The notes under the pieces were generated by a model that saw nothing but the letters and a program-made list of their open reading frames with translations, searched no databases and was not told the DNA's origin. Position numbers and translations under genes: made by a program. Below, piece after piece: positions 2,582-63,086 of a stretch of 64,000 nucleotides of DNA (position 1 is its first letter; each line of letters begins with the position of its first letter). Source of the DNA: Microbulbifer celer (GTDB lineage: Bacteria; Pseudomonadota; Gammaproteobacteria; Pseudomonadales; Cellvibrionaceae); NCBI RefSeq assembly GCF_020991125.1, contig NZ_CP087715.1, positions 124,001 to 188,000 on the forward strand, written 5' to 3'.

Positions 2582-2716
2582 GGTGGCGCTGCTACCGGTA
2601 AACCCCATGCGAGACACGAGCTAGGCGCCCCCCCTCAACCCATCCATGGGGGCTCTTCTAAAACGTCCATGTTTTAGAAGGTCTCGCATGGGGTTTCCCG
2701 GTATCAGCGCCTTCGC
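2582..2716 (-). repeat. GGA-hairpin palindrome, copy 1
   Basis: The outer arms (GGCGCT..TACCGG..AACCCCATGCGAGAC and its complement) enclose two hairpins. Read on the minus strand, hairpin B is a ten-base-pair stem CTTCTAAAAC / GTTTTAGAAG with loop ATGGAC, and hairpin A is CCCA-TGGA-TGGG. The constant side carries the variant motif GAGCTAGGCGC instead of GCCGTGAA. It occupies the ettA / hydrolase divergent intergenic region of about 360 bp, which otherwise shows no gene. The GGA strand is the sense strand of ettA. Confidence 0.85.
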
Positions 2717-2831
2717 TTTGGATTCTGTAGTTTGTACTTACTTTCGCGATGCCGAGTACGAAGCTCCGGGTAATGCCAGTGCGCGCCCATCTATGTTTAA
2801 CTTTGCCCAAACAGAACTAGCGGGAACCAGT

Positions 2832-3938
2832 ATGACCCAGGAATCACCTCTCATCGTCGAACGTCAGGGCCCCATCGGCAAGTTGACGCTCAATCTGCCC
2901 AAAGCCCACAACGCCCTCAACCTCGAGATGATCGACTTGATGGCCGTCCAGCTGGATGAATGGGAAGCAGATGACAGTGTCGCCTGTATCTGGATTGAAG
3001 GCGCCGGGGAAAAAGCCCTGTGTGCGGGTGGCGATGTGGTGGCGCTGCACAAAGCCTCCGGTAGCTACGGGGAACAGGGGGCCGGTCAGTTTGTGGAAGA
3101 CTTCTTCACCCGGGAATACCGTCTCGACTACCGGATTCACACCTATCCCAAACCCATCGTGGTGTGGGGCAACGGTATCGTCATGGGCGGCGGTATCGGC
3201 ATCATGAGTGGTGCCAGCCACCGTATCGTCACCGAAACCACACGCATGGCCATGCCGGAGATCACCATCGGCCTGTTCCCCGATGTGGGCGGCAGCTGGT
3301 TTTTGAACCGTATGCCCGGCCGTACCGGCCTGTTCCTCGGCCTCACCGGGGCCCAGTTCAACGGCACCGATGCGCTCTACTGCGGGATGGCCGACCGTCT
3401 GCTGCCGAGCGACCAGAAAGAAGCATTGCTCGCGGATCTGGCGGCCACCGAATTTACTTCGGACCCCGAGCAGCGCCATATTCTGGTGAGTAAAGCCGTG
3501 CAGAGCCTGGAAATGTCCGCCGGAGAGCCGCCGGCCCCGAACCTGCGCACCCACTACGACGCGATTCAGGCGCTGACCGATGGCGCCACCTTGCCGGATG
3601 TCTACCACACCATTGCCAGCTACGATGGCGACGATAAATGGCTGCAACGCGCTTCTGCCACCATGAAAGCGGGCTGCCCGCTGACGGCGTGGATTGTATG
3701 GGAGCAGCTGCGCCGCGCCCGTCATATGTCCCTGGCGGATGTGTTGCGTATGGAGCTGGCATTGGCGGTGAACATGTGTAGCAACGGCCAGGTAAAAGAA
3801 GGGGTGCGAGCACTGTTGATCGACAAGGACAAAAATCCGCAGTGGCAGCCGGCGCGATTGGAAGATGTTAAAACGGAGCTGGTGGAGGCCTGCTTCAGGG
3901 CGCCGTGGGCTGAAAGTCCGCTGTCGGACCTTAACTGA
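2832..3938 (+). CDS. 3-hydroxyisobutyryl-CoA hydrolase (crotonase superfamily)
   Basis: The 368-residue protein has a crotonase fold throughout: an oxyanion-hole segment AGEKALCAGGDV near residue 65, then GNGIVMGGGIGIMSGASHR and the EITIGLFPDVGGSWFLNR block that is diagnostic for the hydrolase (HIBCH) branch rather than ordinary enoyl-CoA hydratases. It would hydrolyse 3-hydroxyisobutyryl-CoA in valine breakdown. The next gene encodes the following enzyme of that path, 3-hydroxyisobutyrate dehydrogenase. The ATG at 2832 starts at MTQESPLIVERQG and has GGGAA upstream. The open frame extends back to 2646, but that part runs through a repeat element and is not coding. A plain enoyl-CoA hydratase is the less likely alternative. 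Confidence 0.88.
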   Translation: MTQESPLIVERQGPIGKLTLNLPKAHNALNLEMIDLMAVQLDEWEADDSVACIWIEGAGEKALCAGGDVVALHKASGSYGEQGAGQFVEDFFTREYRLDYRIHTYPKPIVVWGNGIVMGGGIGIMSGASHRIVTETTRMAMPEITIGLFPDVGGSWFLNRMPGRTGLFLGLTGAQFNGTDALYCGMADRLLPSDQKEALLADLAATEFTSDPEQRHILVSKAVQSLEMSAGEPPAPNLRTHYDAIQALTDGATLPDVYHTIASYDGDDKWLQRASATMKAGCPLTAWIVWEQLRRARHMSLADVLRMELALAVNMCSNGQVKEGVRALLIDKDKNPQWQPARLEDVKTELVEACFRAPWAESPLSDLN

Positions 3939-4017
3939 GTCGGTGGATGCGCTGCGCTTATCCCCCTACGGTGGTCACGCAATTTTGTGGGGTGGGTAAG
4001 CTTGCGCATGCACCAAC
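3939..4017. repeat. REP-like inverted pair
   Basis: Directly after the hydrolase stop lies GGTGGATGCGCTGCGCTTATCC followed by CCTACG, and about 40 bp on a degenerate inverted copy (GTGGGGTGGGTAAGC..GCGCATGCACC). This motif family, a GTAGGGTGGATAAGCG-type palindrome, is widespread between genes of gammaproteobacteria. It is unrelated to the GGA-hairpin palindromes elsewhere in the window. Confidence 0.6.
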
Positions 4018-4069
4018 CAAGATCCACCATCCAACCCTGGAAAAATAATAAATACATGGAGTTAAACCA

Positions 4070-4978
4070 ATGAACCCGATCAAAAACATCGCCTTTATCG
4101 GCCTCGGCAATATGGGTGGGCCGATGGCGGCCAATCTGGTGCAGAAAGGATTTTCGGTCACCGCGTTTGATCTGTCACAACCGAGCCTGGATCAGGCAGC
4201 GTCCAATGGCTGTGAAAAAGCGGCGAGTGCCGGGAGTGCGGTGCAAGGCGCGGACGCGGTAGTGTCCATGTTGCCCAGCGGCGAAGCGGTACGTGGATTG
4301 TACCTGGGCGAGGGCGGTTTGTTGCAGGTCATGGATCCGCACACCCTGTTAATCGATTGCTCCACGATTGCTGCGGACGACGCCCGACAGGTCATTGCCG
4401 CCGCCACCGATCGCGGTATCCACGCGCTGGATGCGCCGGTATCCGGCGGTACCGCGGCGGCAGCGGCGGGGACCCTGTCATTTATGTGTGGCGGTGAGGA
4501 CAGTGCGGTGGATCGTGCGCGGCCGGTGCTCGCGGCCATGGGGGCGAATATCTTTCACGCCGGCGCGGCAGGTAGTGGCCAGGTGGCCAAGATCTGCAAC
4601 AACATGTTGTTGGCGATTCATATGATCGGCACCGCCGAGGCGCTGCAGCTCGGGGTGGATAATGGCTTGGATCCGGGTGTGCTCTCCGAGATCATGCGCG
4701 CGAGTTCCGGCGGCAACTGGTCACTGGAAAAGTACAACCCCTACCCCGGAGTGATGGAAGATGTCCCCGCCGCGCGGGATTATGCCGGGGGATTTTCCGT
4801 GGCATTGATGTTGAAAGATCTCGGACTTGCGATGGATACGGCAGCAGGCAGCGCCTCTTCGACGCCGTTTGGTGCGCTGGCGAAAAACCTCTATCAGCTC
4901 CACGGCGGCGATCCCGATATACGCGCACTGGACTTCTCCAGCATCCAGAACCTGTTCCGGCGTCCCGTGGGCAACTGA
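4070..4978 (+). CDS. mmsB: 3-hydroxyisobutyrate dehydrogenase
   Basis: At 302 residues this is full length for the family. The N terminus IAFIGLGNMGGPMAANLVQKG is the NAD-binding Rossmann motif of beta-hydroxyacid dehydrogenases. DAPVSGGTAAAAAGTLSFMCGG is the substrate-binding signature (near residue 120), and GQVAKICNNMLLAIHMIG carries the catalytic lysine (near residue 170). It oxidises 3-hydroxyisobutyrate to methylmalonate semialdehyde in valine degradation, in the cytoplasm. It follows the hydrolase gene on the same strand after 130 bp containing a REP-like pair. GGAG 8 bp before the ATG serves as ribosome binding site. Confidence 0.92.
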   Translation: MNPIKNIAFIGLGNMGGPMAANLVQKGFSVTAFDLSQPSLDQAASNGCEKAASAGSAVQGADAVVSMLPSGEAVRGLYLGEGGLLQVMDPHTLLIDCSTIAADDARQVIAAATDRGIHALDAPVSGGTAAAAAGTLSFMCGGEDSAVDRARPVLAAMGANIFHAGAAGSGQVAKICNNMLLAIHMIGTAEALQLGVDNGLDPGVLSEIMRASSGGNWSLEKYNPYPGVMEDVPAARDYAGGFSVALMLKDLGLAMDTAAGSASSTPFGALAKNLYQLHGGDPDIRALDFSSIQNLFRRPVGN

Positions 4979-4995
4979 GGCCGAAGCTGCGTCAG

Positions 4996-5009
4996 TTGAC
5001 CTGGATCAA
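4996..5009. promoter_or_regulatory. FNR/Anr box upstream of hemN
   Basis: TTGACCTGGATCAA matches the FNR/Anr consensus TTGAT-N4-ATCAA with one mismatch. It lies about 70-85 bp before the hemN start. Oxygen-independent haem synthesis is a classic target, and the next gene downstream encodes the matching regulator. Confidence 0.75.
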
Positions 5010-5080
5010 TTGGCGCTAACCCCGGGCAGTGTACTGTCTCGTCATTCGAAAGTGGCGAGACAAAGAACGAGGGCACAATC

Positions 5081-6487
5081 ATGGGGCTCAATCAGGAAGT
5101 CGGTGATGCCGGCGCGGCGCAAAGTATAAATGCATCGCTCTCTCCCGAACTGTTGGGCCGTTATGCGGGCCCCTGTCCGCGCTACACTTCTTACCCCACC
5201 GCAGATCGATTTACCGCATTAGCGGGCGCGGAGCCCTGGTCCTCACTGCAACAGGTGGATTCACTTTCCTTATATGTACACATCCCGTTTTGCCGTTCGC
5301 TGTGTTATTTCTGTGCTTGCAATAAGGTCATCACCCGCCAGTATGGTCTGGCTTCCAGCTACTTGAGTAATCTGCTGCAGGAAGCGCAGTGGTATCGGGA
5401 CCGAGTGGCCGCGGTGCCGGTAGTGCAATTGCATCTCGGCGGCGGCACGCCCACCTTCTTCAGCGATTCGGATCTGGAACGTTTGCTTGCGGGGCTTGGC
5501 GAGATCTTTGATCTGCGCGCGGGCAGCGACGTGGAATACAGTATCGAGGCAGACCCGCGCACCCTGGAGTTGGAAACTCTGGGTACACTGCAGCGCCTCG
5601 GGTTCAACCGGCTCAGCATGGGGATTCAGGATTTCAATCCGGCAGTGCAGCAGGCCATCAACCGTATCTGCAACCCGGAACAGGTGCGGACGCTCACTGA
5701 GCGGGCCCGCGAGCGCGGGTTTGAATCTATCTCCTACGATCTGATCTACGGGCTGCCGGGGCAGAATGTGGACAGTCTCGAGCGGACTATCGATACCGTG
5801 CTGGCGCTGGCACCGGACCGGATCGCGCTGTATCACTACGCCCATCTGCCAGACCGCTTCAAGGCTCAGCGCCTGATCAGCTGCGACCTGATCCCGTCGC
5901 CGATGGAGAAGATCGCCATGCAGTTGACTGCGGCGAGGCGGCTGACCGATGCCGGCTACCAGTTTCTCGGCATGGATCATTTCGCGCGCCCGGAGGATGG
6001 CCTGGCGGTAGCGGCGCGGGAGGGGCGCCTCGCACGTAATTTCCAGGGATATACCCTGATGCCCGCTGACGCACTGGTGGGGCTGGGTGCTTCGGCGATC
6101 AGTTACAGCCGCGATGGCTACTGGCAGAACGCGCACCGCCTGAAGGAATACGCCGCGGCGATCTCGGCGCGGGGCCAGGCAATCCATCGCGGCTGGCAGC
6201 TGTCCGCGGACGACCGGCTGCGCCGGTGGTTGATCATGGAGCTGATGTGCCACCTGCGCGTGAGCAAGGGCGAGCTCTCACAACGCACCGCGGTGCCATT
6301 CACACAGTACTTCCGTGCGGATCTTGCCCGGCTGCAACCGTTGATTGCCGATGGCCTGGTGGAAGAGACCCAGACTGACTTTGTCGTCACCGAGCGCGGG
6401 CGCTGGTTCCTGCGCAATATCGCCGCGTCCTTTGACACCCATCTGCATGGTGCGTGCTCGGACGCCCGCTACTCGCGGGTGCTATAA
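5081..6487 (+). CDS. hemN: Oxygen-independent coproporphyrinogen III oxidase (radical SAM)
   Basis: This 468-residue enzyme decarboxylates coproporphyrinogen III to protoporphyrinogen IX without oxygen. The radical-SAM cysteine motif sits in PFCRSLCYFCACNKV (near residue 68; CxxxCxxC plus the extra HemN cysteine). It is followed by HLGGGTPTFFSDSDLERL for SAM binding and the C-terminal HemN domain with the winged-helix-like RWLIMELMCHLRVSKGEL. Start at ATG 5081, with GAGGG upstream. An FNR-type box precedes it and anr follows after 77 bp, the same pairing seen in Pseudomonas. Confidence 0.95.
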   Translation: MGLNQEVGDAGAAQSINASLSPELLGRYAGPCPRYTSYPTADRFTALAGAEPWSSLQQVDSLSLYVHIPFCRSLCYFCACNKVITRQYGLASSYLSNLLQEAQWYRDRVAAVPVVQLHLGGGTPTFFSDSDLERLLAGLGEIFDLRAGSDVEYSIEADPRTLELETLGTLQRLGFNRLSMGIQDFNPAVQQAINRICNPEQVRTLTERARERGFESISYDLIYGLPGQNVDSLERTIDTVLALAPDRIALYHYAHLPDRFKAQRLISCDLIPSPMEKIAMQLTAARRLTDAGYQFLGMDHFARPEDGLAVAAREGRLARNFQGYTLMPADALVGLGASAISYSRDGYWQNAHRLKEYAAAISARGQAIHRGWQLSADDRLRRWLIMELMCHLRVSKGELSQRTAVPFTQYFRADLARLQPLIADGLVEETQTDFVVTERGRWFLRNIAASFDTHLHGACSDARYSRVL

Positions 6488-6564
6488 GCGCCGGTTGCAG
6501 ATACAATTCTGAACACACCAATAGAACAACCACCAGTAGAACATTGACCCCGCGTGATTTGACT

Positions 6565-7290
6565 ATGAAAAACCCGTCTCCAGCGGTTAGTTGCGGCAGT
6601 TGTTCGGTCCGGAAACTCTGCTTGCCCACCGGGTTGGCAGATGAAGAGGTCGAGCAGCTCGAACAGATCACCCGCAACAAGAAAACCTTGAAAACGGGGG
6701 ACCTGCTGTTCCGCGCCGGAGATCCATTTTCCTGCCTGTATGCCATCCGTTCCGGCAGCTTCAAGTCTGCGGTGATTGGTGCCGATGGGGATTCCCAGAT
6801 CACGCACTTTGCCTTGCCGGGAGAGCTGTTGGGCCTGGATGGTTACAGTGGCAGTGAGCACCCGAGCTACGCGGAAGCACTGGAAGACAGTAGCGTGTGC
6901 ATATTGCCATTCACCCAGCTGGAAGGGTTGGCGCAGAAGGTGCCAGCGCTGCAGAAGCAGATCTACACCATCTTTTCAGAAGAGCTCAAGCAGGAAAATG
7001 ATGTACTGCTGCTACTGGGCAAGCGTTCCGCGGAGATGCGCCTGGCGGCACTGTTGCTGAATATCTCCAGCCGCTATGCGCGCCGGGGGTATTCCGCCTG
7101 TGAGTTTGTTCTCTCCATGGCACGCATGGATATCGCCAACTATCTTGGACTGACCGCCGAGACCGTCAGCCGCCTGTTCTCCCGTTTCCAGAAACAGGGA
7201 CTGATCGATGTACGGGGGCGTGCGGTTGCCATTATTGATCTGGTGGCGCTCAGCGAGCTCGCCGGTACCCACTGCAGCTACGAAAGTTAA
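6565..7290 (+). CDS. anr: Anr/FNR-type oxygen-sensing transcription regulator
   Basis: The 241-residue protein has the FNR layout. The N-terminal cysteine cluster CGSCSVRKLC (C-x2-C-x5-C) and a distal cysteine in SSVCILPF together would hold a 4Fe-4S cluster that dimerises the protein without oxygen. A cyclic-nucleotide-binding-like beta roll follows, then a DNA-recognition helix ETVSRLFSRFQ identical in character to FNR. All four cluster cysteines are present. The ATG at 6565 gives the conserved start MKNPSP; the frame is open upstream but runs into the hemN end. It probably activates hemN through the box at 4996. Confidence 0.93.
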   Translation: MKNPSPAVSCGSCSVRKLCLPTGLADEEVEQLEQITRNKKTLKTGDLLFRAGDPFSCLYAIRSGSFKSAVIGADGDSQITHFALPGELLGLDGYSGSEHPSYAEALEDSSVCILPFTQLEGLAQKVPALQKQIYTIFSEELKQENDVLLLLGKRSAEMRLAALLLNISSRYARRGYSACEFVLSMARMDIANYLGLTAETVSRLFSRFQKQGLIDVRGRAVAIIDLVALSELAGTHCSYES

Positions 7291-7294
7291 AAAG

Positions 7295-7864
7295 TTAGCC
7301 AGTCTGAAGCTTTTCTTCTGAGCTGCCTTGTGGCGCTTTTTCTCTGTGGCCATCTTTCAGGTGCAGCGCCACCTGCTTTTCCAGCCCTTCCAGCGCGTAA
7401 GCCTGGCCGAAGCCTTTGACGTAGCGACCGCCGCTGGGCTTCAGCTCAAACAGGTGAAAATCCTCCAGGTCTTTGAGGTGATCTATCACAGGGCCAAATT
7501 TTTCCCGCAGCTGTTCGATACGCTGTTGCCACAAGGGCTGTTCGCGATCAATTATCGCCGCATCCACATTGAAAGTAACCCGCAGTCGGGCAAACGCCTG
7601 CTTGGTATCCGCCTCATCTGCATTGAATATCACCGACGCCTTGTTGTTGGCCTTCAAGTTGGCGGCGTGCTCGGAGAGATCGGAAATAAACAGGTAAAAA
7701 TTACCATCCGCGGCGAGAAATGGCGCGGTGCTGGCGTGGGGGTGGTTGTCGGCTGTAAGACTCGCCAGATTCAGCAGCTTGCGGGTGGCAATAAAATCGC
7801 GCACCTCGGCGACAAGATCTGCGCCGTCATTGGTTTTGGATGTGGACTTGTTTTGTTCACTCAT
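7295..7864 (-). CDS. hutZ: Haem-degrading/utilisation protein HutZ (pyridoxamine-phosphate-oxidase-like fold)
   Basis: This 189-residue protein has the split-barrel flavin-like fold of the HugZ/HutZ family: VRDFIATRKLLNLASLTADNHPHAS near the N terminus, then FLAADGNFYLFIS, and ending in the haem-contacting LKPSGGRYVKGFGQAY. HutZ proteins bind haem in the cytoplasm and open the porphyrin ring to free iron. It is the last gene of the minus-strand receptor-hutX-hutZ set, 15 bp after hutX, and converges on anr with only 4 bp between. Confidence 0.85.
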   Translation of the reverse strand: MSEQNKSTSKTNDGADLVAEVRDFIATRKLLNLASLTADNHPHASTAPFLAADGNFYLFISDLSEHAANLKANNKASVIFNADEADTKQAFARLRVTFNVDAAIIDREQPLWQQRIEQLREKFGPVIDHLKDLEDFHLFELKPSGGRYVKGFGQAYALEGLEKQVALHLKDGHREKAPQGSSEEKLQTG

Positions 7865-7879
7865 GGGTTTATCCCCAGG

Positions 7880-8392: not shown

Positions 8393-8460
8393 AACATTTC
8401 CTGAGCAATTCTTTTGGGCACTGGAAGAGAGTTGGTGTTTAGAAAAGCCCATTGTGAAGG

Positions 8461-8576
8461 GGCCGCTACCGGGTGCAGCTTTGTGAGACCTTCAAAAACA
8501 TGGATGTTTTTGCAGAGCCCCCAAGGATGGGTTTACGGCGTGTCTCACAAAGCTGCACCCGGTAGCGGTACCGCCA
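8461..8576 (+). repeat. GGA-hairpin palindrome, copy 2
   Basis: The outer stem (CCGCTACC..GGGTGCAGCTTTGTGAGAC and its perfect complement) is about 27 bp. On the plus strand hairpin B is CAAAAACA-TGGA-TGTTTTTG and hairpin A is CCCA-AGGA-TGGG. It sits between the haem receptor and hutX, so the GGA strand is antisense to that operon. The 3' flank ends in CCGCCAC, as in other copies. Confidence 0.88.
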
Positions 8577-8598
8577 CAAAACTATTTAAAATCCAGTG

Positions 8599-10677: not shown

Positions 10678-10769
10678 GTCGGTGCCCCCTTTTTGATGAT
10701 TCCTGTCGATGCGGTGCGCCCGGCGCCAGTCATGTTCGTTTTATGCACTGGCGGCCTGGTACGTCTGTG

Positions 10770-10826
10770 CCGAATGATAGTGCTGGATATCGATATTGTA
10801 AATACGAACTATTATCGTTTGATATT
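10770..10826. promoter_or_regulatory. Probable Fur-binding region between receptor and tonB
   Basis: The 311 bp between the divergent haem genes holds an AT-rich patch unlike its surroundings. Within it 10798-10816 (GTAAATACGAACTATTATC) matches 12 of 19 positions of the Fur consensus GATAATGATAATCATTATC, and a weaker GATATCGATATTGTAAATA overlaps it. Overlapping partial sites are usual for Fur. The rest of the gap shows no gene or other element. Confidence 0.5.
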
Positions 10827-10988
10827 GTATCTGCAGGTTGCTAACCTTCGTTGCGCACTCTGGCAGTTGGGGCTGGGGTGCTTGTAGCGGGCCTTATGGC
10901 AGGGGATGCATAAAGCAAGGCGAGCAGGTAATCACCACCGAACAGACGTACACAGGCTGATTCCCAGAGAGACTGATACAAAGAGAGA

Positions 10989-15759: not shown

Positions 15760-15782
15760 TGGGGAATGTGGGTGAAGGTGAC

Positions 15783-15865
15783 GATGCCGGGTACAGTCTT
15801 GTGAGACGTTGACTCGGGGCAAGCCCCGCACCCTTCGGGCGCGGCGACCACCAGGCCGCCGCAGG
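15783..15865. repeat. Degenerate GGA-hairpin palindrome remnant (left arm)
   Basis: GCCGGGTACAGTCTTGTGAGAC at 15785-15806 resembles the left outer arm of copies 2 and 4, but no matching right arm follows. The following sequence folds as CGGGGC-AAG-CCCCG and related hairpins without GGA loops. I read it as a decayed copy in the 288 bp gap between hmuV and glyA. Confidence 0.45.
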
Positions 15866-21231: not shown

Positions 21232-21266
21232 CGGGGTGGCGGTCCTGCCCAGCGACAGGACCTTCG
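21232..21266. repeat. Internally deleted GGA-hairpin palindrome (ends only)
   Basis: GGTGGCGGTCCTG, 8 bp, then CAGGACCTTCGC. These are exactly the outer ends seen at 26847-26970 (GGTGGCGGTCCTG ... AGAACCTTCGC), with everything between removed. It suggests loss of the core by deletion across the stem. Confidence 0.55.
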
Positions 21267-21303
21267 CATCAGAAAGTGGTGCAAGTTGAGAAGTTTGAAT
21301 TGA

Positions 21304-21420
21304 AGCGGCTGCTATCGGGTAAAGCTTTGCGAGACCTTCCGCGAGAGGGACCTCGCGGAAGAGCCCCCATGGATGGGTTCACGGCGTGTCTCGCAAAGCT
21401 TTACCCGGTAGTAGGCGCGC
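21304..21420 (+). repeat. GGA-hairpin palindrome, copy 4 (between ribE and ribBX)
   Basis: The outer stem CTATCGGGTAAAGCTTTGCGAGAC pairs with GTCTCGCAAAGCTTTACCCGGTAG. On the plus strand hairpin B is CTTCCGCGAG-AGGGAC-CTCGCGGAAG and hairpin A is CCCA-TGGA-TGGG. The GGA strand is the sense strand of the rib genes, so the element would be in their mRNA, about 110 nt before the ribBX start. Confidence 0.9.
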
Positions 21421-21532
21421 CACGGATCTGGCTACGAAGTGATTTCGGACTGTTGGCTTCGCATCGAAGAACGGTGCAACTTGAGACATTTGTGATCGAC
21501 CAAGCAGGTAGATCGAAAAGACCAGAGGTTTT

Positions 21533-22648: not shown

Positions 22649-22681
22649 CCGGTAAGTAAGAACTCAAAACCTTGAATTGAA

Positions 22682-22797
22682 GGCGGAGTGCCGGGTATGC
22701 GTTTTCAGGAGCGTCGCAAACAGGATGTTTGCGCCGCAGCGCCCAAGGATGGGTTTACAGCGGTCCTGAAAACGCATCCCTGGTGCTCCGCCGCCAC
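22682..22797 (+). repeat. GGA-hairpin palindrome, copy 5 (between ribBX and ribH)
   Basis: Outer arms GGCGGAG..CGGG..ATGCGTTTTCAGGA and the complement ending CTCCGCC, then CGCCAC. On the plus strand hairpin B is CGCAAACA-GGA-TGTTTGCG and hairpin A is CCCA-AGGA-TGGG. Both GGA loops are on the sense strand of the operon, about 65-150 nt before ribH. Confidence 0.9.
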
Positions 22798-26627: not shown

Positions 26628-26678
26628 TTTATTTTCTGACCACTGAAGGTCCTCAAGAACCTATAACGACGATGTGAA

Positions 26679-26795
26679 GGCCCCGCTGCAGGGAAGCGTT
26701 TCCGGGACCGTCTGCGGCCAGGACGGCCGCAGCCGAGCCCCCAGGGATGGGTTTACGGCGTGTCCCGGAAACGCTTCCCTGCAGCGGGGCCGCCA
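26679..26795 (+). repeat. GGA-hairpin palindrome, copy 6 (3' of ribA)
   Basis: The outer stem is a perfect 30 bp: GGCCCCGCTGCAGGGAAGCG then TTTCCGGGAC, with its exact complement. On the plus strand hairpin B is CTGCGGCC-AGGAC-GGCCGCAG and hairpin A is CCCA-GGGA-TGGG. It lies 50 bp after the ribA stop, sense to ribA. Confidence 0.92.
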
Positions 26796-26846
26796 CCACC
26801 TCCTCTACGAAGCTCCCGAGGTCCATCGCTCGCACAGAACTTCTAT

Positions 26847-26970
26847 GGTGGCGGTCCTGTTACCGGTGATTGCCTTGCGAGACACGCCGTGAACCCATCC
26901 ATGGGGGCTCTTCTAAAACATCCCTGTTTTAGAAGGTCTCGCAAGGCAATCCCCGGTAGCAGAACCTTCG
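26847..26970 (-). repeat. GGA-hairpin palindrome, copy 7 (3' of pullulanase)
   Basis: Outer arms GGTCCTG..TACCGG..ATTGCCTTGCGAGAC and complement. On the minus strand hairpin B is CTTCTAAAACA-GGGA-TGTTTTAGAAG, 11 bp, in which 11 of 12 bases fit the CsrA consensus; hairpin A is CCCA-TGGA-TGGG. It lies just past the pullulanase stop, sense to that gene and in opposite orientation to copy 6. Confidence 0.92.
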
Positions 26971-26998
26971 CTTCGGCTGCTTTGCTTCGTTTAAGGCT

Positions 26999-30935: not shown

Positions 30936-30985
30936 TGCTTGCTCCGGCCTTCGGCCGCGAGGAGCGCCGTATAAAGTTCGGTGAC

Positions 30986-31085
30986 GGCAAATCACAGGGG
31001 GAACGGTTTTGGAACCGAGCTAGGCGCTCCCCTGTGGATACATCCCTGTACGCTCTGTCGGAAACCATTCCCCCGGCGCTTTGCC
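30986..31085 (-). repeat. GGA-hairpin palindrome, copy 8
   Basis: The outer arms are imperfect (GGCAAA..GGGGGAAcGGTTT and its near complement). On the minus strand 31051-31040 reads GTACAGGGATGT, an exact 12/12 match to the CsrA SELEX consensus RUACARGGAUGU, folded as TACA-GGGA-TGTA. The left side carries the GAGCTAGGCGC variant motif. Confidence 0.75.
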
Positions 31086-31133
31086 TTCAGCTCAACCCGT
31101 AGAGCACTGAACAGCGATTTTGTTTACCATTCA

Positions 31134-38817: not shown

Positions 38818-38887
38818 CGTACTTCCTGTCTCTGATTTATATTTGTGTAACGAAATTGATTCGAAGCGCATATGGTGAATGCGAAGG

Positions 38888-39038
38888 CGGGACGCAGGGG
38901 AAGGCTTTTCGGAACCGTCGGCAACAGGGGCCGAAGGCGCCGTGAATGCCTGGAGCGGCCGGGCCACGTTGCCGACGGAGCGTACAGGGATGTATTCAGA
39001 GCGGTTCCGAAAAGCCTTCCCCTGTGGCCCGGCGCCAC
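38888..39038 (+). repeat. GGA-hairpin palindrome, copy 9 (long variant)
   Basis: The outer stem is a perfect 23 bp from CAGGGGAAGGC at 38895. The inner arm CGTCGGCAAC pairs with GTTGCCGACG around a 40-base insert. 38982-38993 reads GTACAGGGATGT, an exact 12/12 match to the CsrA SELEX consensus, folded TACA-GGGA-TGTA. The GGA strand is antisense to the flanking minus-strand genes. Confidence 0.85.
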
Positions 39039-39084: not shown

Positions 39085-39200
39085 GTGGCGGCTGGGCACC
39101 GGGCGCGGGTTTTCAGGACCGCTGTGAACCCATCCCTGGGCGCTTCGGCGCAAACATCCTGTTTGCGACGATCCTGAAAACCCGCGCCCGCCACCCAGCC
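39085..39200 (-). repeat. GGA-hairpin palindrome, copy 10 (3' of dxs)
   Basis: Outer arms GGCTGGG..GCGCGGGTTTTCAGGA and complement ending CCCAGCC. On the minus strand hairpin B is CGCAAACA-GGA-TGTTTGCG (the same as copy 5) and hairpin A is CCCA-GGGA-TGGG. It begins about 40 bp past the dxs stop, sense to dxs, head-to-head with copy 9. Together the two fill the 422 bp gap. Confidence 0.9.
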
Positions 39201-39239
39201 TTCGCTTCGAGTTTTTGTGCCTGGTATCAGGGCGCTTTT

Positions 39240-50523: not shown

Positions 50524-50560
50524 GGGGCGAAGGCCCCACCCGGTAGCGGCACCGCCACAG
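50524..50560. repeat. GGA-hairpin palindrome remnant (right end)
   Basis: A hairpin GGGGC-GAAG-GCCCC followed by CCCGGTAGCGGCACCGCCAC, the typical right end of the family (compare 8559-8576). No left arm or GGA hairpins remain. Confidence 0.5.
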
Positions 50561-54160: not shown

Positions 54161-54181
54161 GCCCTGACGACGAGATAAGAC

Positions 54182-55741: not shown

Positions 55742-55846
55742 TCGCTACAGTTGGTGACAGCGCGCGCTCCGGCGGGAGAAAATAGCGTCAGTCATCCCAC
55801 AGCCGGGACGTCTCGGTACGCTCCGGCGATTCTCACTGACAGGACC

Positions 55847-57666: not shown

Positions 57667-57777
57667 TTCTGTTGGGGCTCAGTGGCGGTGGAGCAGCGGG
57701 GACCTTCACGTCTTACGGTATGACGCTGTCCGAACCGCTGCGTATCGATCATTTTGTCACCGCAAGAAATTCTCTCG

Positions 57778-59361
57778 CTACTGCTCGCTTGCCTCGATTT
57801 CCCGTGCCATCAAAAAATGCGCCAGCGCGCGCTTCTGGCTGTTGCTGAAGCCGTAATTGGGCATGGGCGGGGTGGGGGTGTCGAAGGTGTCGGCCAATTG
57901 CTTGAGGGTGTATTTGCGGCTCAGGTCCCGCAGGGGCAGGTAGCGGTGGCAGCGCGCGCAGTTGCGTTGGCGATAGATTTTTTCCCCCTGGCGGGCGGCG
58001 CTGCGGTCGATGGCCAGCGGTTTTTTGGGGCCGCTGAAGTGCGGTGTGGCTACGGTGGTGTCCTGTGCGGATTCTCCGGGCTGTACACGGTAGATAGCCC
58101 CTGCATAGTCGTCGGAAATGTAGATATTGCCGCGGATGTCTTCGGCAATGGCCGCCGGGCGGCCGTAGACAGTATCGGTTTGCGGATCGAGGAACCCCCA
58201 CAGGAAATCGTGGGCGATGATGTCGCCGTGTTCGTCCCAGTGCAGGGAAATCACTTTGTATCCATCTTTCTTGTCGCGGTTCCAGGAGCCGTGCAGGGCA
58301 ACCAGTGCCGCTTCGTGGTAGTAAATGGGCTGTTCCTGGCTGCGCAGGAATTGAATACCGAGCGGTGCATTGTGGGCGCGGAAACGGAATACCGGCACTT
58401 CGGAGTTGGCGATCTTCTGCTGGACTTCCGGCGGCGCATCGACGCCGAAGTCCGGGTCCGGTACGCGGTTGCCGTTGGCATAGGGCCAGCCGTAAAACTC
58501 GCCCTGCTCGATCCGGTTCAGCTCACAAGGTGGGAAGTTGTTGCCGAGCCAGTCGCGGCCGTTATCGGTGGCGTAGAGGGCGCCGTCTTTGGGGGACCAG
58601 TCGAAGCCGACGCTGTTGCGCAGGCCGGTGGCGTAAATTTCCAGATTGCTGCCGTCGGGACGGAACCGCATGATGGTGGCGCGTTGCGGATCCGTTTCTT
58701 CACACACGTTGCAGGTGGAGCCGCTGGAGAGATACATCCAGCCATCGGGACCCATGGCGATGGTTTTGGTCCAGTGGTTGCCATCGTCGCCGAGGTTGTT
58801 GACGATCCGCTGGTAACTACCCGCCAGGCGCCCATCGGAATGATCGAACGGCACGCGACCGACACCGTTGCTTTCGGCGATGTACAGCCAGTCTTCAAAC
58901 AGCGCCAGGCTGTGGGGCCGGGTGAGGCCGTCGATCAGCACCCGCTGATCGTCCGCGGCGCCGTCGCCGTCCTGGTCCGGCTGCAACAGGCTGATCTGGC
59001 CGAGCTTGGGCTGAGCGACGAGAACGGCGCCACGGCGGGTCACTTCCATAAAGCGCGCATTGGGTACATCGTCACTGAACAGCTGCAGGCGATAACCGGG
59101 TGCCAGCTTTAATTGACCTTTTACGATTTCGGCGTTGGTGTTGGCGCCCAACAGTTGTCCCCAGGGGACATTGATCCCCGGGAAAAATCCACGCTCGACG
59201 GCGACGAATAATATTAAGAGGAGTACCACGACAATAGTGAGACTTGTGTAAAAAAGTGGCGCCTCTTTCGGTTTTTTGATCACTTCCTTCTTGATCCCGT
59301 AACAAAAGTAACTATAGTAATGCGCAGCCTTCAAGGGCGTACGACTGTACCAGTTTCGCAC
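57778..59361 (-). CDS. Membrane-anchored PQQ-type sugar/sorbosone dehydrogenase-like protein with C-terminal cytochrome c
   Basis: The 527-residue protein has one N-terminal anchor (LFYTSLTIVVVLLLILFVAV, near residue 40), then a six-bladed propeller of the soluble aldose/sorbosone dehydrogenase type (LTRPHSLALFEDWLYIAESNGVGRV, then GPDGWMYLSSGSTCNVCEE, GLRNSVGFDWSP, HGSWNRDKKDGYKV). A C-terminal cytochrome c domain carries the haem motif CARCH with a distal Met-type tail. It would oxidise a sugar or aldehyde in the periplasm and pass electrons to its own haem. GTG 59361 is the only long start; a GTG at 59283 is possible. A CRP-like site lies 60 bp upstream. Confidence 0.83.
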   Translation of the reverse strand: MRNWYSRTPLKAAHYYSYFCYGIKKEVIKKPKEAPLFYTSLTIVVVLLLILFVAVERGFFPGINVPWGQLLGANTNAEIVKGQLKLAPGYRLQLFSDDVPNARFMEVTRRGAVLVAQPKLGQISLLQPDQDGDGAADDQRVLIDGLTRPHSLALFEDWLYIAESNGVGRVPFDHSDGRLAGSYQRIVNNLGDDGNHWTKTIAMGPDGWMYLSSGSTCNVCEETDPQRATIMRFRPDGSNLEIYATGLRNSVGFDWSPKDGALYATDNGRDWLGNNFPPCELNRIEQGEFYGWPYANGNRVPDPDFGVDAPPEVQQKIANSEVPVFRFRAHNAPLGIQFLRSQEQPIYYHEAALVALHGSWNRDKKDGYKVISLHWDEHGDIIAHDFLWGFLDPQTDTVYGRPAAIAEDIRGNIYISDDYAGAIYRVQPGESAQDTTVATPHFSGPKKPLAIDRSAARQGEKIYRQRNCARCHRYLPLRDLSRKYTLKQLADTFDTPTPPMPNYGFSNSQKRALAHFLMAREIEASEQ

Positions 59362-59419
59362 TGGCTACCCGCTCTAAAAGTTGTCGCCTTCTCCCTCCGG
59401 GCGCCTCTTCCCTCAAAAG

Positions 59420-59435
59420 CGTGATTTTCATCACA
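59420..59435. promoter_or_regulatory. CRP/Vfr-type binding site
   Basis: CGTGATTTTCATCACA fits the CRP consensus TGTGA-N6-TCACA with one mismatch and is flanked by AAG and TCG. It lies 59 bp before the dehydrogenase start and 4 bp from the GacA box on the other side, so either or both could be controlled. Confidence 0.6.
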
Positions 59436-59439
59436 TCGA

Positions 59440-59457
59440 TGTAAGACATCTCTTACA
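59440..59457 (+). promoter_or_regulatory. Perfect GacA box (Gac/Rsm upstream activating sequence)
   Basis: TGTAAGACATCTCTTACA matches all 12 defined positions of TGTAAG-N6-CTTACA. This site is known almost only from promoters of RsmX/Y/Z and CsrB/C small RNAs. A -10 element CATAAT stands at 59501-59506, and the predicted start near 59512 is about 64 bp from the box centre, the expected distance. Confidence 0.9.
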
Positions 59458-59511
59458 ACAAGTTCAGTGATTTTCCACTACCGTTATCTTCGCCAGCGAC
59501 CATAATGTATT

Positions 59512-59647
59512 TGCAAGGACGAGATATGGACTGATCGGCGGCAAGGGACTTGGCCTCCACGGATTGGAGACCGCGCCGCCAGCCCAAAGGAGTGGGCACC
59601 ATCCTGTGAGACGCACCGCTTGGGCCGGATTGCCCAGGCGGTGTTTT
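59512..59647 (+). ncRNA. RsmY/RsmZ-type small RNA sequestering CsrA/RsmA
   Basis: About 135 nt with seven GGA motifs (59517, 59528, 59546, 59561, 59566, 59589, 59627). Predicted hairpins place GGA in loops: CAAG-GGA-CTTG (59542-59552), CTCCA-CGGAT-TGGAG (59555-59569), GCCCA-AAGGAG-TGGGC (59582-59597), and the terminator hairpin itself (TGGGC-CGGATT-GCCCA). Titrating CsrA/RsmA dimers through such loops is the established action of this RNA class. No protein gene overlaps convincingly. The 5' end is estimated from the -10 element. Primary sequence is not close to any Rsm RNA I can recall, as is usual for the class. Confidence 0.85.
59614..59647 (+). terminator. Rho-independent terminator of the Rsm-type RNA
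   Basis: CACCGC-T-TGGGC pairs with GCCCA-G-GCGGTG across loop CGGATT, a 12-base-pair stem, followed by TTTT. Confidence 0.8.
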
Positions 59648-59950
59648 ACATTTGGGCAATTGAAAATTTCCTGTCTCCGGGGCGCAGTCTGGAAAACGCC
59701 GTCGAACGGTAGTTTGCCACGTTTACGCAAAAATGTTCTCGCCTGTCTGGAAAACGTCACACTTCTCCGCTTTAATCTGCATAAAGAGGGTCAAATTTTT
59801 CTGACCGAGGAGGATGGCGCGTTCAGTAACTACCGGTTACCCCAGCATCTCAATCAGCCGCTCTGCCTGTCATGGTGGCCGGGCCTGTATCAGCCTCGGG
59901 TTTCCCTCTCTGCAAGGCCCGGTACCACGGCTTCTGACCGCCGCTCTTTC

Positions 59951-60010
59951 CATTTACACTTGGCCCATTTACACCTAGCCGATTTACACCTGCCCGATTT
60001 ATATCTACCC
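59951..60010 (+). repeat. Four 15-bp tandem repeats
   Basis: The units CATTTACACTTGGCC, CATTTACACCTAGCC, GATTTACACCTGCCC and GATTTATATCTACCC are contiguous. In one frame they would read HLHLA, HLHLA, DLHLP, DLYLP, similar to pentapeptide repeats, but the surrounding frame does not look coding. They lie in the 470 bp between the small RNA and the HNH gene, which otherwise holds only the terminator at 60017. Confidence 0.6.
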
Positions 60011-60016
60011 AACTTA

Positions 60017-60055
60017 AAAAGCCTCGCCGGACTGCCTGCGGGGCTTTGTTGTTTC
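60017..60055 (+). terminator. Terminator-like hairpin after the tandem repeats
   Basis: GCCTCGC (60021) pairs with GCGGGGC (60038) across a ten-base loop, followed by TTTGTTGTTT. It implies plus-strand transcription through the repeats and isolates the HNH gene from it. Confidence 0.6.
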
Positions 60056-60117
60056 TTGAGCCCCATTTTTGTTCCGCGCTCTGTATCCCATCTGTTTGCT
60101 GAAGGGGAGGATCACTT

Positions 60118-60690
60118 GTGCATGCGCAAATCCTGAGACTGAACCTGGCCGGGCAGCCACTGGAGTGGCTGAGCTGGGAGGAAGCGGCCTGCCTGTATGT
60201 GCGGGACCTGGTGACCTGGACGCTGGGCGGTATCGTGCAGACGGTACACGGCGGCATCAACCGACAGGGCGAGCGTTCAAAGCTGGATCTGGCGGCCATC
60301 ATTGCCTGTGGCGGTGAGCGCCTGGCGCGCCCGCGTACCCGTCCACCACTGACCAACCGCGCGCTGTTCGCCCGCGATCAGCATCTCTGCCTGTATTGTG
60401 GCAATGGCTTCCCGATTCGCGAACTGACCCGGGATCACGTCCACCCGGTATCAAAGGGCGGACGCGATATCTGGGAAAATGTGGTCACCGCCTGCCGTCG
60501 CTGCAACCAGCACAAGGGCAACCGGTTGCTGGAGAACATTGAACTGGAATTGCTGGCACTGCCGTTTGTACCCAATGCAGCGGAATACCTGGCACTCACC
60601 AACAGCGCGCGGATTCGGGGGGATCAGATGGAGTTTCTGCGCGGCCAGTTCTCCCGGCCGCGACAGGAGGGCTGGCTTCAGGCGGTCTGA
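60118..60690 (+). CDS. HNH endonuclease family protein
   Basis: The 190-residue protein ends with an HNH domain: CLYCGNGFPIRELTRDHVHPVSKGGRDIWENVVTACRRCNQHKGNRL. The two CxxC pairs hold zinc and the DHVHP / N / H residues form the nuclease site. The N-terminal 90 residues are a conserved partner region (LNLAGQPLEWLSWEEAACLYVRDLVTW). Chromosomal HNH proteins of this type are common and their role is unknown. The start is GTG at 60118, behind AGGGGAGG. It overlaps the convergent ddl gene by 13 bp. Confidence 0.88.
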   Translation: MHAQILRLNLAGQPLEWLSWEEAACLYVRDLVTWTLGGIVQTVHGGINRQGERSKLDLAAIIACGGERLARPRTRPPLTNRALFARDQHLCLYCGNGFPIRELTRDHVHPVSKGGRDIWENVVTACRRCNQHKGNRLLENIELELLALPFVPNAAEYLALTNSARIRGDQMEFLRGQFSRPRQEGWLQAV

Positions 60691-61700
60691 TTGACTGCGC
60701 TACGGATCAGATCTGCGAGGTAGACATTGAAATCGTGCCCCTGATTCTGCAGCATTTTCGGGAACATGGAGATGGGCGTCATGCCCGGGAAGGTGTTTAC
60801 CTCATTGAGGTAGATATCCCCTTCATCGGTCAGGAAAAAGTCGATTCGCGACAGATCTTTCAGTTGCAGGCCGATAAAGGCGCGTTTGGAGGCTTCGTAA
60901 ATCCAGCCCAGCTGCGCATCTGACAAGTCCTTCGCCACCACGTGGGTTTCGGCGCGGCTGTTCTCCGCGTACTTTTCTTCGTAACTGTAAAACGTATCCG
61001 CCGGCGCGCAGACTTCACCGGGAGGCGTGATGACCAACTCCCCCTTGTAGGTATAGGCGGCTACTTCCAGCTCCCGCACCGTGAGGCACTTTTCCACCAG
61101 CACGTAGGGAGAAAGGCGAAAGGCCTTATCCAGAACCTGCGCAAGCGTCGCTTCCTCCGTCACCTTGTAACAGCCCACGGAGGAGCCCTGGTTGGAAGCC
61201 TTGATAAATATTGCACCCCACCTTTTCAGCGCATCCCGCGCCTTCGCGGTCTCTTCGGCGGTATTGGCGCACAGGAAACGATAGGGCGTATTGTCGATAC
61301 CGAGCGCGCTCAGCCACAGTTTGGTGGTGACCTTGTTGAAGCACAGCTTACTTGCCTCCGGTCCGCAGCCGTAATAGGGCAGGCCGAGTATCTCCAGCTG
61401 CGATTGCAGGTCGCCGGTTTCACCGGGGTAGCCGTGAATCGCCGGAATCACGTAATCCACCGGTTGCGCGCTGCCATTGCTGCTGTATAGCAGGCGATCC
61501 GAGCGCAGCTCCCGCAGCTTGCCGCTGCCGTCATGAAGCTGGCCCTCGGCACTCATGGTGACCCGGGTCAGCTGCAGGTCGCCACATTTCTGCAGTTCGC
61601 GCTCGATAAAGTCCGCGGTGCGGAGCGATACCTCGTGCTCACTGCTGCCACCACCGCAGATCAGCAGTACCTGGATGGGGTTGGATGCCTTCTGATTCAT
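60678..61700 (-). CDS. ddlA: D-alanine--D-alanine ligase (DdlA type)
   Basis: The 340-residue ATP-grasp enzyme has LLICGGGSSEHEVSLRTADF at the N terminus, then AIHGYPGETGDLQSQLEILGLPYYGCG, FIKASNQGSSVGCYKV, YVLVEKCLTVRELEVAAY, and the C-terminal NEVNTFPGMTPISMFPKML metal-binding segment. It makes D-Ala-D-Ala for peptidoglycan. The short linker lacks the extra loop of DdlB. It is not in a division cluster, so a ddlB copy may exist elsewhere. Confidence 0.92.
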   Translation of the reverse strand: MNQKASNPIQVLLICGGGSSEHEVSLRTADFIERELQKCGDLQLTRVTMSAEGQLHDGSGKLRELRSDRLLYSSNGSAQPVDYVIPAIHGYPGETGDLQSQLEILGLPYYGCGPEASKLCFNKVTTKLWLSALGIDNTPYRFLCANTAEETAKARDALKRWGAIFIKASNQGSSVGCYKVTEEATLAQVLDKAFRLSPYVLVEKCLTVRELEVAAYTYKGELVITPPGEVCAPADTFYSYEEKYAENSRAETHVVAKDLSDAQLGWIYEASKRAFIGLQLKDLSRIDFFLTDEGDIYLNEVNTFPGMTPISMFPKMLQNQGHDFNVYLADLIRSAVNQTA

Positions 61701-61847
61701 CGAGCTCTCATCTGACTGTTATACAAATTCTGGTTACTTGTTCTGGCTGCTTCTGCTGCGTCTAAATAGTGTGATCGCGCCTCAAGCACAGCCCAGGATT
61801 ACACGTTTGCTCTTTTGCTACACCCGAGCAATTTTAGCGAAGATTCT

Positions 61848-62720
61848 TTACTGCGCTTTCAGCACCTGGCGACACTGCGCAGGCATTTCTTTTTTCTTCT
61901 TCGGCTTGGTGGGTTTGCTTGGTGCAGTACCGTTAAGGATGGCGTAAAACTCGTCGCTAAACCACCAGTCCAGCCCCCCTTCACAGGGATCGCCCTTTAC
62001 CGGTGACTGTGGTTTGCAGTGTTTGTCTTCCGGCGGGCAATTCAGGCGCACATGAAAGTGGTAGTTGTGCCCCCACCAGGGGCGGACCTTGCGCAACCAT
62101 TCATTGTCGGTACCTGAAATATCGCACATTTTGCGCTTGATGGTGGGGTGTACAAAAATCCGCGCGACCCGGGGATCTTCCGAGGCGAGGCGCAGGATGC
62201 TGGGAATACGCGGATCCCAGTTTTTTTCGATCAGGCGGTGTGCGCGTTCATCGGCGAGGGGTACGGCGGAGATGTTGTCCCGTTCCCAGGACGTCAGCGG
62301 CCGTTTGGCGGCACGGTGATCCTGTGCATACCAGATATCGGCGTCCAGCCCGGTCTGATGGCTTTTGTGTCCGCCGATCAGCGGGCCGCCGCGGGCCTGG
62401 GACATATCGCCGATCTGCAGGCGGCCGAGGTCGTTTTCTTCCACGCTGTTGGAGAGGTCTTTGAGAAATTCCACCAGGTAGGGGCTGCCGTAGTGCCGGT
62501 CGCGCCCGGTGCGCACGAGCTGGAATCCTTCGCCCCGCAGTGGCATCTGTTGTGCGCCGCTGACACAGCCGTTGCTGTAGCTGCCGATGCTTTCGGGGGG
62601 TTGTTGGGAGGGGGTTTTTACTTGTCCCCAGGTGTTCTGGGCGTGTGCACTGGTTGCCACGAGCAGGGAGATGATTGTGGCGAGGGTCCATTGGCATAGG
62701 GTACGAGCGGGTGACGACAT
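61848..62720 (-). CDS. mepA: Penicillin-insensitive murein endopeptidase
   Basis: The 290-residue exported protein (signal peptide ending at AHAQN) has the MepA zinc site: GGHKSHQTGLDADIW (HxxGxxxD, near residue 125) and WWGHNYHFHVRLNCP (near residue 215). Six further cysteines match the MepA disulphides (SNGCVSGAQQMPLRGEGF at the start). It cuts D-Ala-meso-DAP cross-links in peptidoglycan. The C terminus has a Lys-rich stretch PTKPKKKKEMP. It lies beside ddlA, both acting on the cell wall, with a 147 bp gap that shows nothing. Confidence 0.93.
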   Translation of the reverse strand: MSSPARTLCQWTLATIISLLVATSAHAQNTWGQVKTPSQQPPESIGSYSNGCVSGAQQMPLRGEGFQLVRTGRDRHYGSPYLVEFLKDLSNSVEENDLGRLQIGDMSQARGGPLIGGHKSHQTGLDADIWYAQDHRAAKRPLTSWERDNISAVPLADERAHRLIEKNWDPRIPSILRLASEDPRVARIFVHPTIKRKMCDISGTDNEWLRKVRPWWGHNYHFHVRLNCPPEDKHCKPQSPVKGDPCEGGLDWWFSDEFYAILNGTAPSKPTKPKKKKEMPAQCRQVLKAQ

Positions 62721-63086
62721 GGATTTACTGCGTTGCTGTCGGTTTGTGGGTTAGATACTCGGGGAATTATAGAGGTTCCGTAGAGGGGTTCTGTGGAATG
62801 GTCCGCTTGGGCTTGATTGGGTTTGGTGGTTTTTACTTGGCTGGTTGGGTGGCGGCTCGGCTAGCCGGTATGCTCTCAGACACGAGCTAGGCGCGCCCTT
62901 CAACCTATATATGGTCTCCTCTCCGTTTGCAAGGCTCCAGGTGTTAATGGCAGGGACAGGGTTGTTCCCATATCCGGTCTGTTGTCGGAAATTGTGCTCC
63001 TGTCTCGATGAAGATCTGCGTGCACTGTCCTAATCATCCATACGGCGGCTGTGCGCGTCGGGCCACAAGCCCCAGTATTCATTGGC
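62721..63086. other. Intergenic stretch with a palindrome remnant
   Basis: About 366 bp without a gene. 62849-62916 holds the left half of a GGA-hairpin palindrome (GGGTGGCGGC..CCGGTATG..AGACACGAGCTAGGCGCGCCC), the same variant as copy 1, with no right arm. Base composition becomes AT-richer towards the right. No promoter or terminator stands out. Confidence 0.5.

Follow-up and report, generated by a model that had tools for sequence, protein, structure and literature searches.

The element considered here is an intergenic palindrome of ~125 bp that recurs in a 64,000-nucleotide stretch of the Microbulbifer celer genome (positions 124001–188000 of a chromosome of 4,346,001 bases; hereafter, the window). 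Its closest described relative is the TwoAYGGAY RNA (Rfam family RF01731), listed in 2010 (PMC2864571). In the passages of a 2014 paper devoted to it, this RNA has tandem GAs and an external stem of low conservation, its function was still unknown, and binding of CsrA was put forward as a prediction only (PMC4333381). RF01731 and CsrB both belong to the Rfam clan CL00106. Small RNAs of the CsrB/RsmZ type are single-locus RNAs with many GGA motifs; they share GGA hairpins and the idea of a CsrA sink with our elements, but the latter have two hairpins each and occupy many loci. As presented in the part of PMC2817692 (2010) that deals with them, repetitive extragenic palindromic (REP) sequences and bacterial interspersed mosaic elements (BIMEs) resemble the elements in forming more than 100 extragenic palindromes with inverted pairs and complementary changes, but a REP is a short palindrome with a GTAG-type start, lacking the length and the two inner GGA hairpins seen here. 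According to the corresponding sections of PMC4005645, the high-affinity Csr/Rsm site is an ANGGAX hexaloop placed directly on a stem, sites without N being weaker, and the loop bases read in RsmE structures are A and GGA.

In relation to these systems, the elements are a divergent, repeat-like variant of the TwoAYGGAY kind of RNA. The account as a whole, that of a dispersed TwoAYGGAY-type element that docks CsrA/RsmA and behaves like REP/BIME repeats, is in our judgment just probable on balance. Like TwoAYGGAY, the elements carry on one strand (hereafter, the GGA strand) two hairpins whose loops read ANGGAY, which is AYGGAY if any second base is allowed; their external stem is likewise of low conservation, and they too occur in gamma-Proteobacteria. 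By eye, a tandem GA also seems to be present in one stem in copies of some genera. They differ in that N is often G rather than Y, in the fixed segment TTYACRGCG, in the number of copies (at least 172 in one genome), in the inverted pairs, and in scoring below the RF01731 gathering score of 43 bits. This model has no match at the gathering score in the window (copies 5 and 6 have none even at E ≤ 10) or in 18 element-bearing loci of other species, and none at E ≤ 0.1 among the 14 of 97 candidates scored in the M. celer genome. Weak matches, at the same place and strand as our pattern match, are found in two loci, L331 (33.0 bits) and L339 (31.7 bits; L and G numbers denote loci and genomes in our data), and a further two-hairpin copy in L331 that lacks the pattern scores 35.2 bits. 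In other gammaproteobacteria, RF01731 matches 18 out of 185 genomes, ten of them over the cut-off, with several matches in some genomes. No known Rfam family reaches its gathering score in the window; the E-value-level matches, mostly to microRNA families, were taken as chance matches to long hairpins.

A preliminary description of the window, made from sequence alone, knew of no earlier report; TwoAYGGAY RNA and, for this sister family, the CsrA idea itself are already in print. Within open-licence papers, supplements not included, no text was found to describe such elements in hundreds of copies, with stems that are hypervariable yet compensated, or with inverted pairs that are conserved, and six 14-base motif strings matched two unrelated human-disease papers only. 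The terms repetitive, intergenic, palindrom- and TwoAYGGAY are all absent from a 2026 preprint that deals with Csr/Rsm binding across gamma-proteobacteria. The Alcanivorax CsrR1 and CsrR2, judging from the relevant passages of PMC9788540, are different RNAs, and for the Beggiatoa TAACTGA repeats canonical CsrA recognition was held unlikely by the author in the corresponding part of PMC4679880.

Fold, loops and the folded strand

As RNA, the GGA strand would fold so that a long outer stem, complementary to itself, carries two hairpins at its top, the loops typically being C-A(N)GGAY-G. In the alignment of the best 150 out of 172 copies from the M. celer genome, which is fitted to the structure, 95.2% of the paired cells hold standard pairs, compared to 72.2% after shuffling; two-sided changes are seen in 45 out of 47 pairs, and slid controls drop to 38–47%. 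For other genomes, the search pattern fixed the region of hairpin A and left hairpin B and the outer stem free. There, 60 out of 91 eligible copies (GGA at the usual place) yield 89.3% standard pairs vs. 59.4% after shuffling, with two-sided changes in 26 out of 30 pairs. The outer helix alone has them in 14 out of 14 pairs in other species and 30 out of 31 in M. celer, and its columns 24–27 are near random in sequence, with partners closely matching (0.16–0.40 bits; this and the other conservation figures are for copies picked by a model that the copies built). Minimum-energy folds contain exactly two hairpins, both with GGA, in 125 out of 172 copies, at least two GGA hairpins among a larger number of hairpins in 25, and fewer than two in 22.

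Next to these strongly covarying stems, the loop GGA is fixed, as the preliminary description had seen in the window. The three GGA bases are found in 149/149, 148/149 and 146/147 copies in hairpin B and in 147/150, 149/150 and 144/144 copies in hairpin A, with the N position of the latter variable (T 85, G 58, A 5, C 2 in 150 copies) and the base after GGA nearly always T or C. Hairpin A reads CANGGAYG in 156 out of 172 copies; among these, hairpin B is a C-ANGGAY-G hexaloop in 63, a C-AGGAY-G pentaloop in 61, a G-ANGGAY-C hexaloop in 21 and another GGA form in nine, and lacks GGA in two. On average, a copy has 1.53 ANGGAY on the GGA strand vs. 0.08 on the opposite one, and the distance from GGA to GGA is 23 or 24 nt in 144 out of 154 cases.

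Hairpin B of other species, unconstrained by the search, contains GGA in 105 out of 111 scored hairpins. These come from 138 copies, five of which were omitted due to short flanks, and 22 of the remaining 133 lack a perfect 5-bp stem; by eye, approximately 13 of the 22 have the same loop above a stem interrupted by a tandem GA (e.g., L305, L325 and L349), not seen in the window copies, and several others have no clear GGA hairpin. In 56 out of 60 copies from other genomes, hairpin B is closed by a C-G pair, its other pairs being mostly free to vary. Thus, the elements present, in pairs, the ANGGAX hexaloop directly on a stem, with A and GGA constant and N variable. Judging by this pattern, the hairpins are of the CsrA/RsmA type, as the preliminary description proposed; they are predicted binding sites, and binding of CsrA is likely.

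The mismatches of the outer stem tell which strand folds. They were counted in a strand-neutral alignment of both arms, in 94 out of 172 M. celer copies with the GAGC...GGAYG core (93 with the palindrome) and in 124 out of 138 others. Read on the GGA strand, G·T outnumbers A·C 76:15 in the 93 M. celer copies and 150:21 in the 124 copies from other genomes (52:4 and 75:9, respectively, in a sign test by copy), the copies in both sets sharing ancestry. Transitions falling equally on both strands would give equal numbers of G·T and A·C; the excess of G·T therefore means that the GGA strand is the strand whose fold was kept. Strand-specific deamination may be an alternative source of the excess. 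In M. celer, states shared by at least four out of 150 copies are nine of the G·T type and none of the A·C type (columns 14, 16 and 37 omitted), and rare states are 29:19. The ratio of G·T to A·C within a palindrome may serve as a simple comparative signature for the working folded strand of a repeat.

Elements of the window and of the genome

The nine elements of the preliminary description were all located on the GGA strand by a covariance model, R1, eight of them with 84–140 bits and the ninth with 31.3 bits. As seven out of nine were, along with further copies from the same genome, in the training set of R1, these scores locate the elements and are not an independent test. The opposite strand of the window palindromes scores 28–55 bits, so the model itself tells the strands apart. 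Copies, predicted hairpin sites matching the consensus RUACARGGAUGU obtained for CsrA by systematic evolution of ligands by exponential enrichment (SELEX), and remnants are as follows.

2580..2717, minus strand: copy 1, 119.1 bits, the longer GCGCCTAGCTCG linker variant
8453..8577, plus strand: copy 2, 139.6 bits, antisense to both neighbours (ChuX/HutX-like gene and TonB-dependent receptor gene)
21299..21423, plus strand: copy 3, 134.2 bits, downstream of a riboflavin-synthase-like gene
22676..22797, plus strand: copy 4, 90.3 bits, pentaloop hairpin B, site occupied in 13 other species
26673..26796, plus strand: copy 5, 125.7 bits, pentaloop hairpin B, first member of the inverted pair with copy 6, flanking genes convergent
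26848..26972, minus strand: copy 6, 139.3 bits, second of the inverted pair with copy 5
26918–26929, minus strand: hairpin B of copy 6, AAACAGGGATGT, 11 out of 12 SELEX positions
30981..31091, minus strand: copy 7, 31.3 bits (E 1.3e-4), degenerate, without a normal hairpin B
31040–31051, minus strand: hairpin A of copy 7, 12 out of 12 SELEX positions
38880..39038, plus strand: copy 8, 84.0 bits, insert in hairpin B, antisense to both neighbours
38982–38993, plus strand: hairpin A of copy 8, 12 out of 12 SELEX positions
39085..39206, minus strand: copy 9, 98.6 bits, pentaloop hairpin B, sense, second of an inverted pair
15772..15808, plus strand: remnant, a single 5' arm, by eye, unscored at E ≤ 1
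21236..21262, no strand assigned: remnant, arm fragment with a GTGGCGG end, by eye, unscored at E ≤ 1
50527..50558, plus strand: remnant, element ends without the two-hairpin core, by eye, unscored at E ≤ 1
62849..62915, minus strand: remnant, degenerate half of a copy-1-like element, by eye, unscored at E ≤ 1

The elements, the hairpins and the SELEX matches of the preliminary description held up, and its ends, the location of the insert, the copy number and the remnants as given did not. Hairpin A is indeed CCCA-NGGA-TGGG in seven out of nine window copies and TACA-GGGA-TGTA in two. Both exact matches to RUACARGGAUGU are at the positions claimed, and the match at 11 positions is real, though it sits in the sixth copy; allowing up to one mismatch, the window contains three matches vs. 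0.41 expected, and one out of 100 shuffles reaches three. In place of alike ends GTGGCGG/CCGCCAC, the GGA strand ends with CCGCCAC at the 3' end, but mostly begins with GCGAAGG at the 5' end. The insert in hairpin B exists, but in copy 8 and not in the last copy, and copy 7 lacks a normal hairpin B. The four remnants can be recognized by eye, as listed, but R1 scores none of them at E ≤ 1.

The claimed number, at least nine, proved to be a strong underestimate. An exact search of the genome with GAGCNNNCANGGATGNNTT gives 87 matches (50 forward and 37 reverse) vs. none for the reversed pattern. R1 scored 150 out of 2168 first-look candidates, and since all 150 passed, this number is a floor for the copy number. 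At E 1e-9, R1 finds 172 copies in 664 kb (the surroundings of the 150 matches plus the window) of the 4.35-Mb genome, hence at least 172 copies. Three of them overlap a called gene by at least 40 bases (genes being called with a simple codon model). The segment 1.60–2.14 Mb, possibly the terminus region, strictly contains only two of the 150 matches.

Several features vary between copies. Copy 1 lies between divergent genes, for an ABC-transporter ATPase (minus strand) and an enoyl-CoA hydratase-like protein (plus strand). An alternative linker of the GGGGGGCGCCTAGCTCG type replaces CACGGCG at 2580–2717, 30981–31091 and 62849–62915 of the window and also in L404, L413 and L435; the linker type may differ between copies at one orthologous site (L404 vs. 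L402 and L403). The insert in hairpin B of copy 8 is GC-rich, and near-alike inserts are present in another species (L444) and in another M. celer copy (L152:2672–2825), as if the insertion itself was copied between elements. Two closely related copies, L131 and L138, have an extra inverted repeat beyond the ends (CTGTTCACTTAA ... TTAAGTGAACAG in L138); a longer unit may thus include some of the copies.

Persistence, spread and placement

Some copies have stayed in place over considerable divergence. The site of copy 4 contains an element in 14 species, M. celer included, with per-site divergence of 0.42 and 0.46 in the flanks, 0.18 in the outer stem and 0.10 in the core; a hypervariable six-base block shows paired changes, the arms being mismatched there in G042. 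The spacer of copies 8 and 9, an inverted pair between the DXP-synthase and DUF885 genes, was examined in 17 out of 30 loci retrieved, M. celer included; both copies in the same opposite orientation are present in 11 of the 17, relatives included, and a single copy in four more. Divergence at these two sites, calculated on eight and 11 copies of standard length, is 0.46–0.55 in the flanks, 0.19–0.29 in the arms and 0.14–0.15 in the core. Hence, across the three sites, p ranges over 0.42–0.55 for the flanks, 0.18–0.29 for the arms and 0.10–0.15 for the core. The site of copy 3 contains an element in three relatives (L403–L405) whose inner arm is common to copy 3.

At the same sites, hairpin type and arms are in some species swapped wholesale (G051, G002 and G020 for copy 4; L438, L442 and L448 for copies 8 and 9), which means that copies also convert or replace one another, and due to such exchange conservation in place alone is no proof of selection. 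L447, one of the eight, looks like a recombinational deletion or fusion between the two copies of the inverted pair, and L422 has kept both arms and lost the core. These observations bear on the possibility that the elements are relics without a function, whose likeness is maintained by gene conversion among the many copies and by palindrome repair in which one arm is the template for the other: different hairpin types and arms at one site are expected if copies overwrite each other, and remnants and internal deletions fit as well. Relics, however, leave unexplained the strand-specific excess of G·T, the contrast between freely varying stems and fixed loop bases, and the same loop rule across many genera, and we consider them highly improbable.

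Other relatives have at the orthologous sites no element or other palindromes. At the syntenic site of copy 2, R1 detects no element in 12 loci of relatives searched; one such locus, L196, contains another palindrome family, two palindromes in opposite orientation with unlike outer stems and a shared CAAACGATTGCCGACAGGTTGTTTG-type core without GGA loops, which points to several families of variable-armed palindromes in these spacers. Intergenic regions L415–L417, L421, L425 and L427–L430 have GTAGGAGCC- and GTAGGATGGGC-type palindromes in the same spacers of other species, which we take to resemble REPs linked to REP-associated tyrosine transposases (RAYTs).

Elements built to this plan, but with different stems, are found across Gammaproteobacteria, and named Microbulbifer records contain copies of the same subfamily. 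A pattern scan of genome contigs gave at least 120 stretches, and the 80 titles among the matches listed are, we assume, gammaproteobacterial or unassigned Proteobacteria. The pattern is also present in six viral contigs and in two plasmid records from alphaproteobacterial hosts, with one place in each; in the plasmid pDCA (Ancylobacter, NZ_KU922118.1), the element stands beside ISAs1 transposase and haloalkane dehalogenase genes and shares the core of the M. celer elements, with hairpin A CTC-AGGGAC-GAG and hairpin B CTGCCGCC-AGGAC-GGCGGCAG. A Stenotrophomonas copy found no match in the plasmid and phage records searched. Within the genus, the copy number varies from zero to at least 92 scored matches per genome.

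With respect to genes, the copies favour convergent over divergent contexts, 37:7 in M. celer (background 61:63; three copies overlapping small called genes omitted) and 30:8 elsewhere (background 77:94; 26 contig-edge copies and viral loci omitted). All 26 pairs separated by less than 400 bases are inverted, and 21 of them (-+ order) have GCGAAGG ends facing each other; the two pairs of the window have the other order. No preference for the gene strand is evident: in codirectional contexts, the GGA strand is sense in 104 cases and antisense in 91 (n = 195, p = 0.39), although single copies in M. celer are sense in 53 cases and antisense in 33 (n = 86, p = 0.04). Absence of a strand bias towards transcripts is among the results that the preliminary description named as refuting its own proposal, and the claim that the elements wire host transcripts into the Rsm system is not supported as stated. 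The lack of preference, the orientation-independent excess of G·T and the inverted pairs argue against pads placed in host messages; they favour a repeat that occupies spacers in both orientations.

The avoidance of divergent spacers could also point to a structural element at gene ends, i.e., a shield from exonucleases, a hairpin interfering with transcription, or a site for gyrase or a nucleoid protein, with GGA loops serving folding stability or some protein. The very stable folds, the BIME-like inverted pairs and the hairpin stems, almost wholly Watson–Crick, agree with that, but the loop GGA is far more constant than the stems and is unneeded for stability alone, and the wobble is strand-specific, which makes this explanation quite improbable. 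A Rho-independent terminator was rejected as there is no consistent T-run directly at the ends read by eye, a terminator scan not having been run.

The dispersal, the variable copy number and the presence or absence at orthologous sites agree with the term mobile-like used in the preliminary description, but neither a transposase nor a target duplication was found. Counts of Y1 transposases do not track the copy number, as G012 (51 elements) and G022 (43) have no Y1 match; among 30 Y1 loci searched, one weak element was seen, with no Y1 (RAYT) gene flanked by cognate repeats. A REP/RAYT system was thus rejected, and a RAYT transposase is unlikely. Flank-to-flank matches of 3–5-mers are no more common than in one shuffled pairing, and 6–9-mers amount to just one or two cases.

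Nevertheless, the elements may be nonautonomous mobile elements, like REP/BIME or a miniature inverted-repeat transposable element, in which a transposase, recombinase or reverse transcriptase recognises the GGA strand in its folded state, either as single-stranded DNA or as an RNA intermediate; the GGA loops would then be recognition bases, and CsrA irrelevant. Besides dispersal, this explanation accounts for the close pairs being always inverted and mostly in one order, for placement independent of the gene strand and avoiding divergent spacers, for the G·T excess being equal in sense and antisense copies and, in M. celer, greater in shared states than in rare ones, and for the constant TTYACRGCG segment. 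What it lacks is a resident enzyme among the Y1 transposases (other transposase families were not searched) and a target duplication; it also does not explain why copies are kept in place across flank-scrambling divergence or why both loops agree with the Csr consensus. We consider it rather unlikely.

Proposed Csr/Rsm docking and its meaning

The host has a CsrA homologue (PF02599, 6.2e-25), and the reading of the hairpins as CsrA/RsmA-type, made in the preliminary description, draws support from this as well as from their anatomy. A second covariance model, R2, built from other genomes and applied at E 1e-4 with strict filters to 12 candidates scored per genome, found an element in 76 out of 369 genomes of the class. 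The csrA gene is present in 313 of the 369, namely, in 71 out of 76 element-bearing genomes vs. 242 out of 293 others, and, among genomes at least 90% complete, in 62 out of 63 vs. 218 out of 251 (Fisher p of 0.019 overall and 0.006 among complete genomes, with kinship ignored). Five element genomes, G060, G121, G152, G248 and G395, have no csrA match above the cut-off, a looser search included; only G248 is at least 90% complete.

Several observations weigh against CsrA docking. G248 is 98% complete and has nine element matches with no csrA match above the cut-off, and the association with csrA may reflect shared ancestry. Approximately 40% of hairpins B (61 out of 156) are the weaker pentaloop. 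The sense-to-antisense counts pooled above consist of 74 to 54 in M. celer (n = 128, p = 0.09) and 30 to 37 in other genomes (n = 67), and antisense copies keep the wobble bias like sense ones, 39:9 vs. 29:5 in other species and 11:2 antisense vs. 25:2 sense for the pair of copies 8 and 9 (13 of each copy). In columns 18–36 of the outer stem, G·T occupies just 19 out of 2818 cells, very low for an RNA under selection for folding alone, so copying between arms or copies may help to maintain the match. Finally, the constant GAGC and TTYACRGCG bases and the near-perfect long outer stem are left unexplained by the CsrA idea.

With its GGA motifs 23–24 nt apart, each copy is most probably one docking site for a CsrA/RsmA dimer. 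Copies lie between genes, seldom divergent ones, singly or in inverted pairs, and behave like REP/BIME repeats; they probably multiply or exchange within the genome, and some persist in place, their fold and loops kept and their stem sequence drifting. The likely effect is that read-through transcription from either side would at times copy the GGA strand, which CsrA would then bind, and bound elements would add to a distributed CsrA sink and alter the decay of the RNA carrying them. The element does not resemble an operator at a ribosome-binding site.

In a broader sense, selfish or domesticated RNA-structured repeats of Gammaproteobacteria might spread a ready docking module for CsrA dimers, turning tens to hundreds of gene ends into a distributed, evolving sink and decay switch, with free stems keeping copies from recombining and loop bases contacted by CsrA staying fixed; we put this forward as a speculation, unlikely in its full extent. 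The abundance of the elements, their changing self-matching stems and their persistence in place make a role of CsrA newly testable, and a single genome with at least 172 natural variants, whose loops are fixed and whose stems are in part almost randomised, provides a ready test set for Csr/Rsm recognition. If they are bound, much of the cell's CsrA could sit on intergenic repeats.

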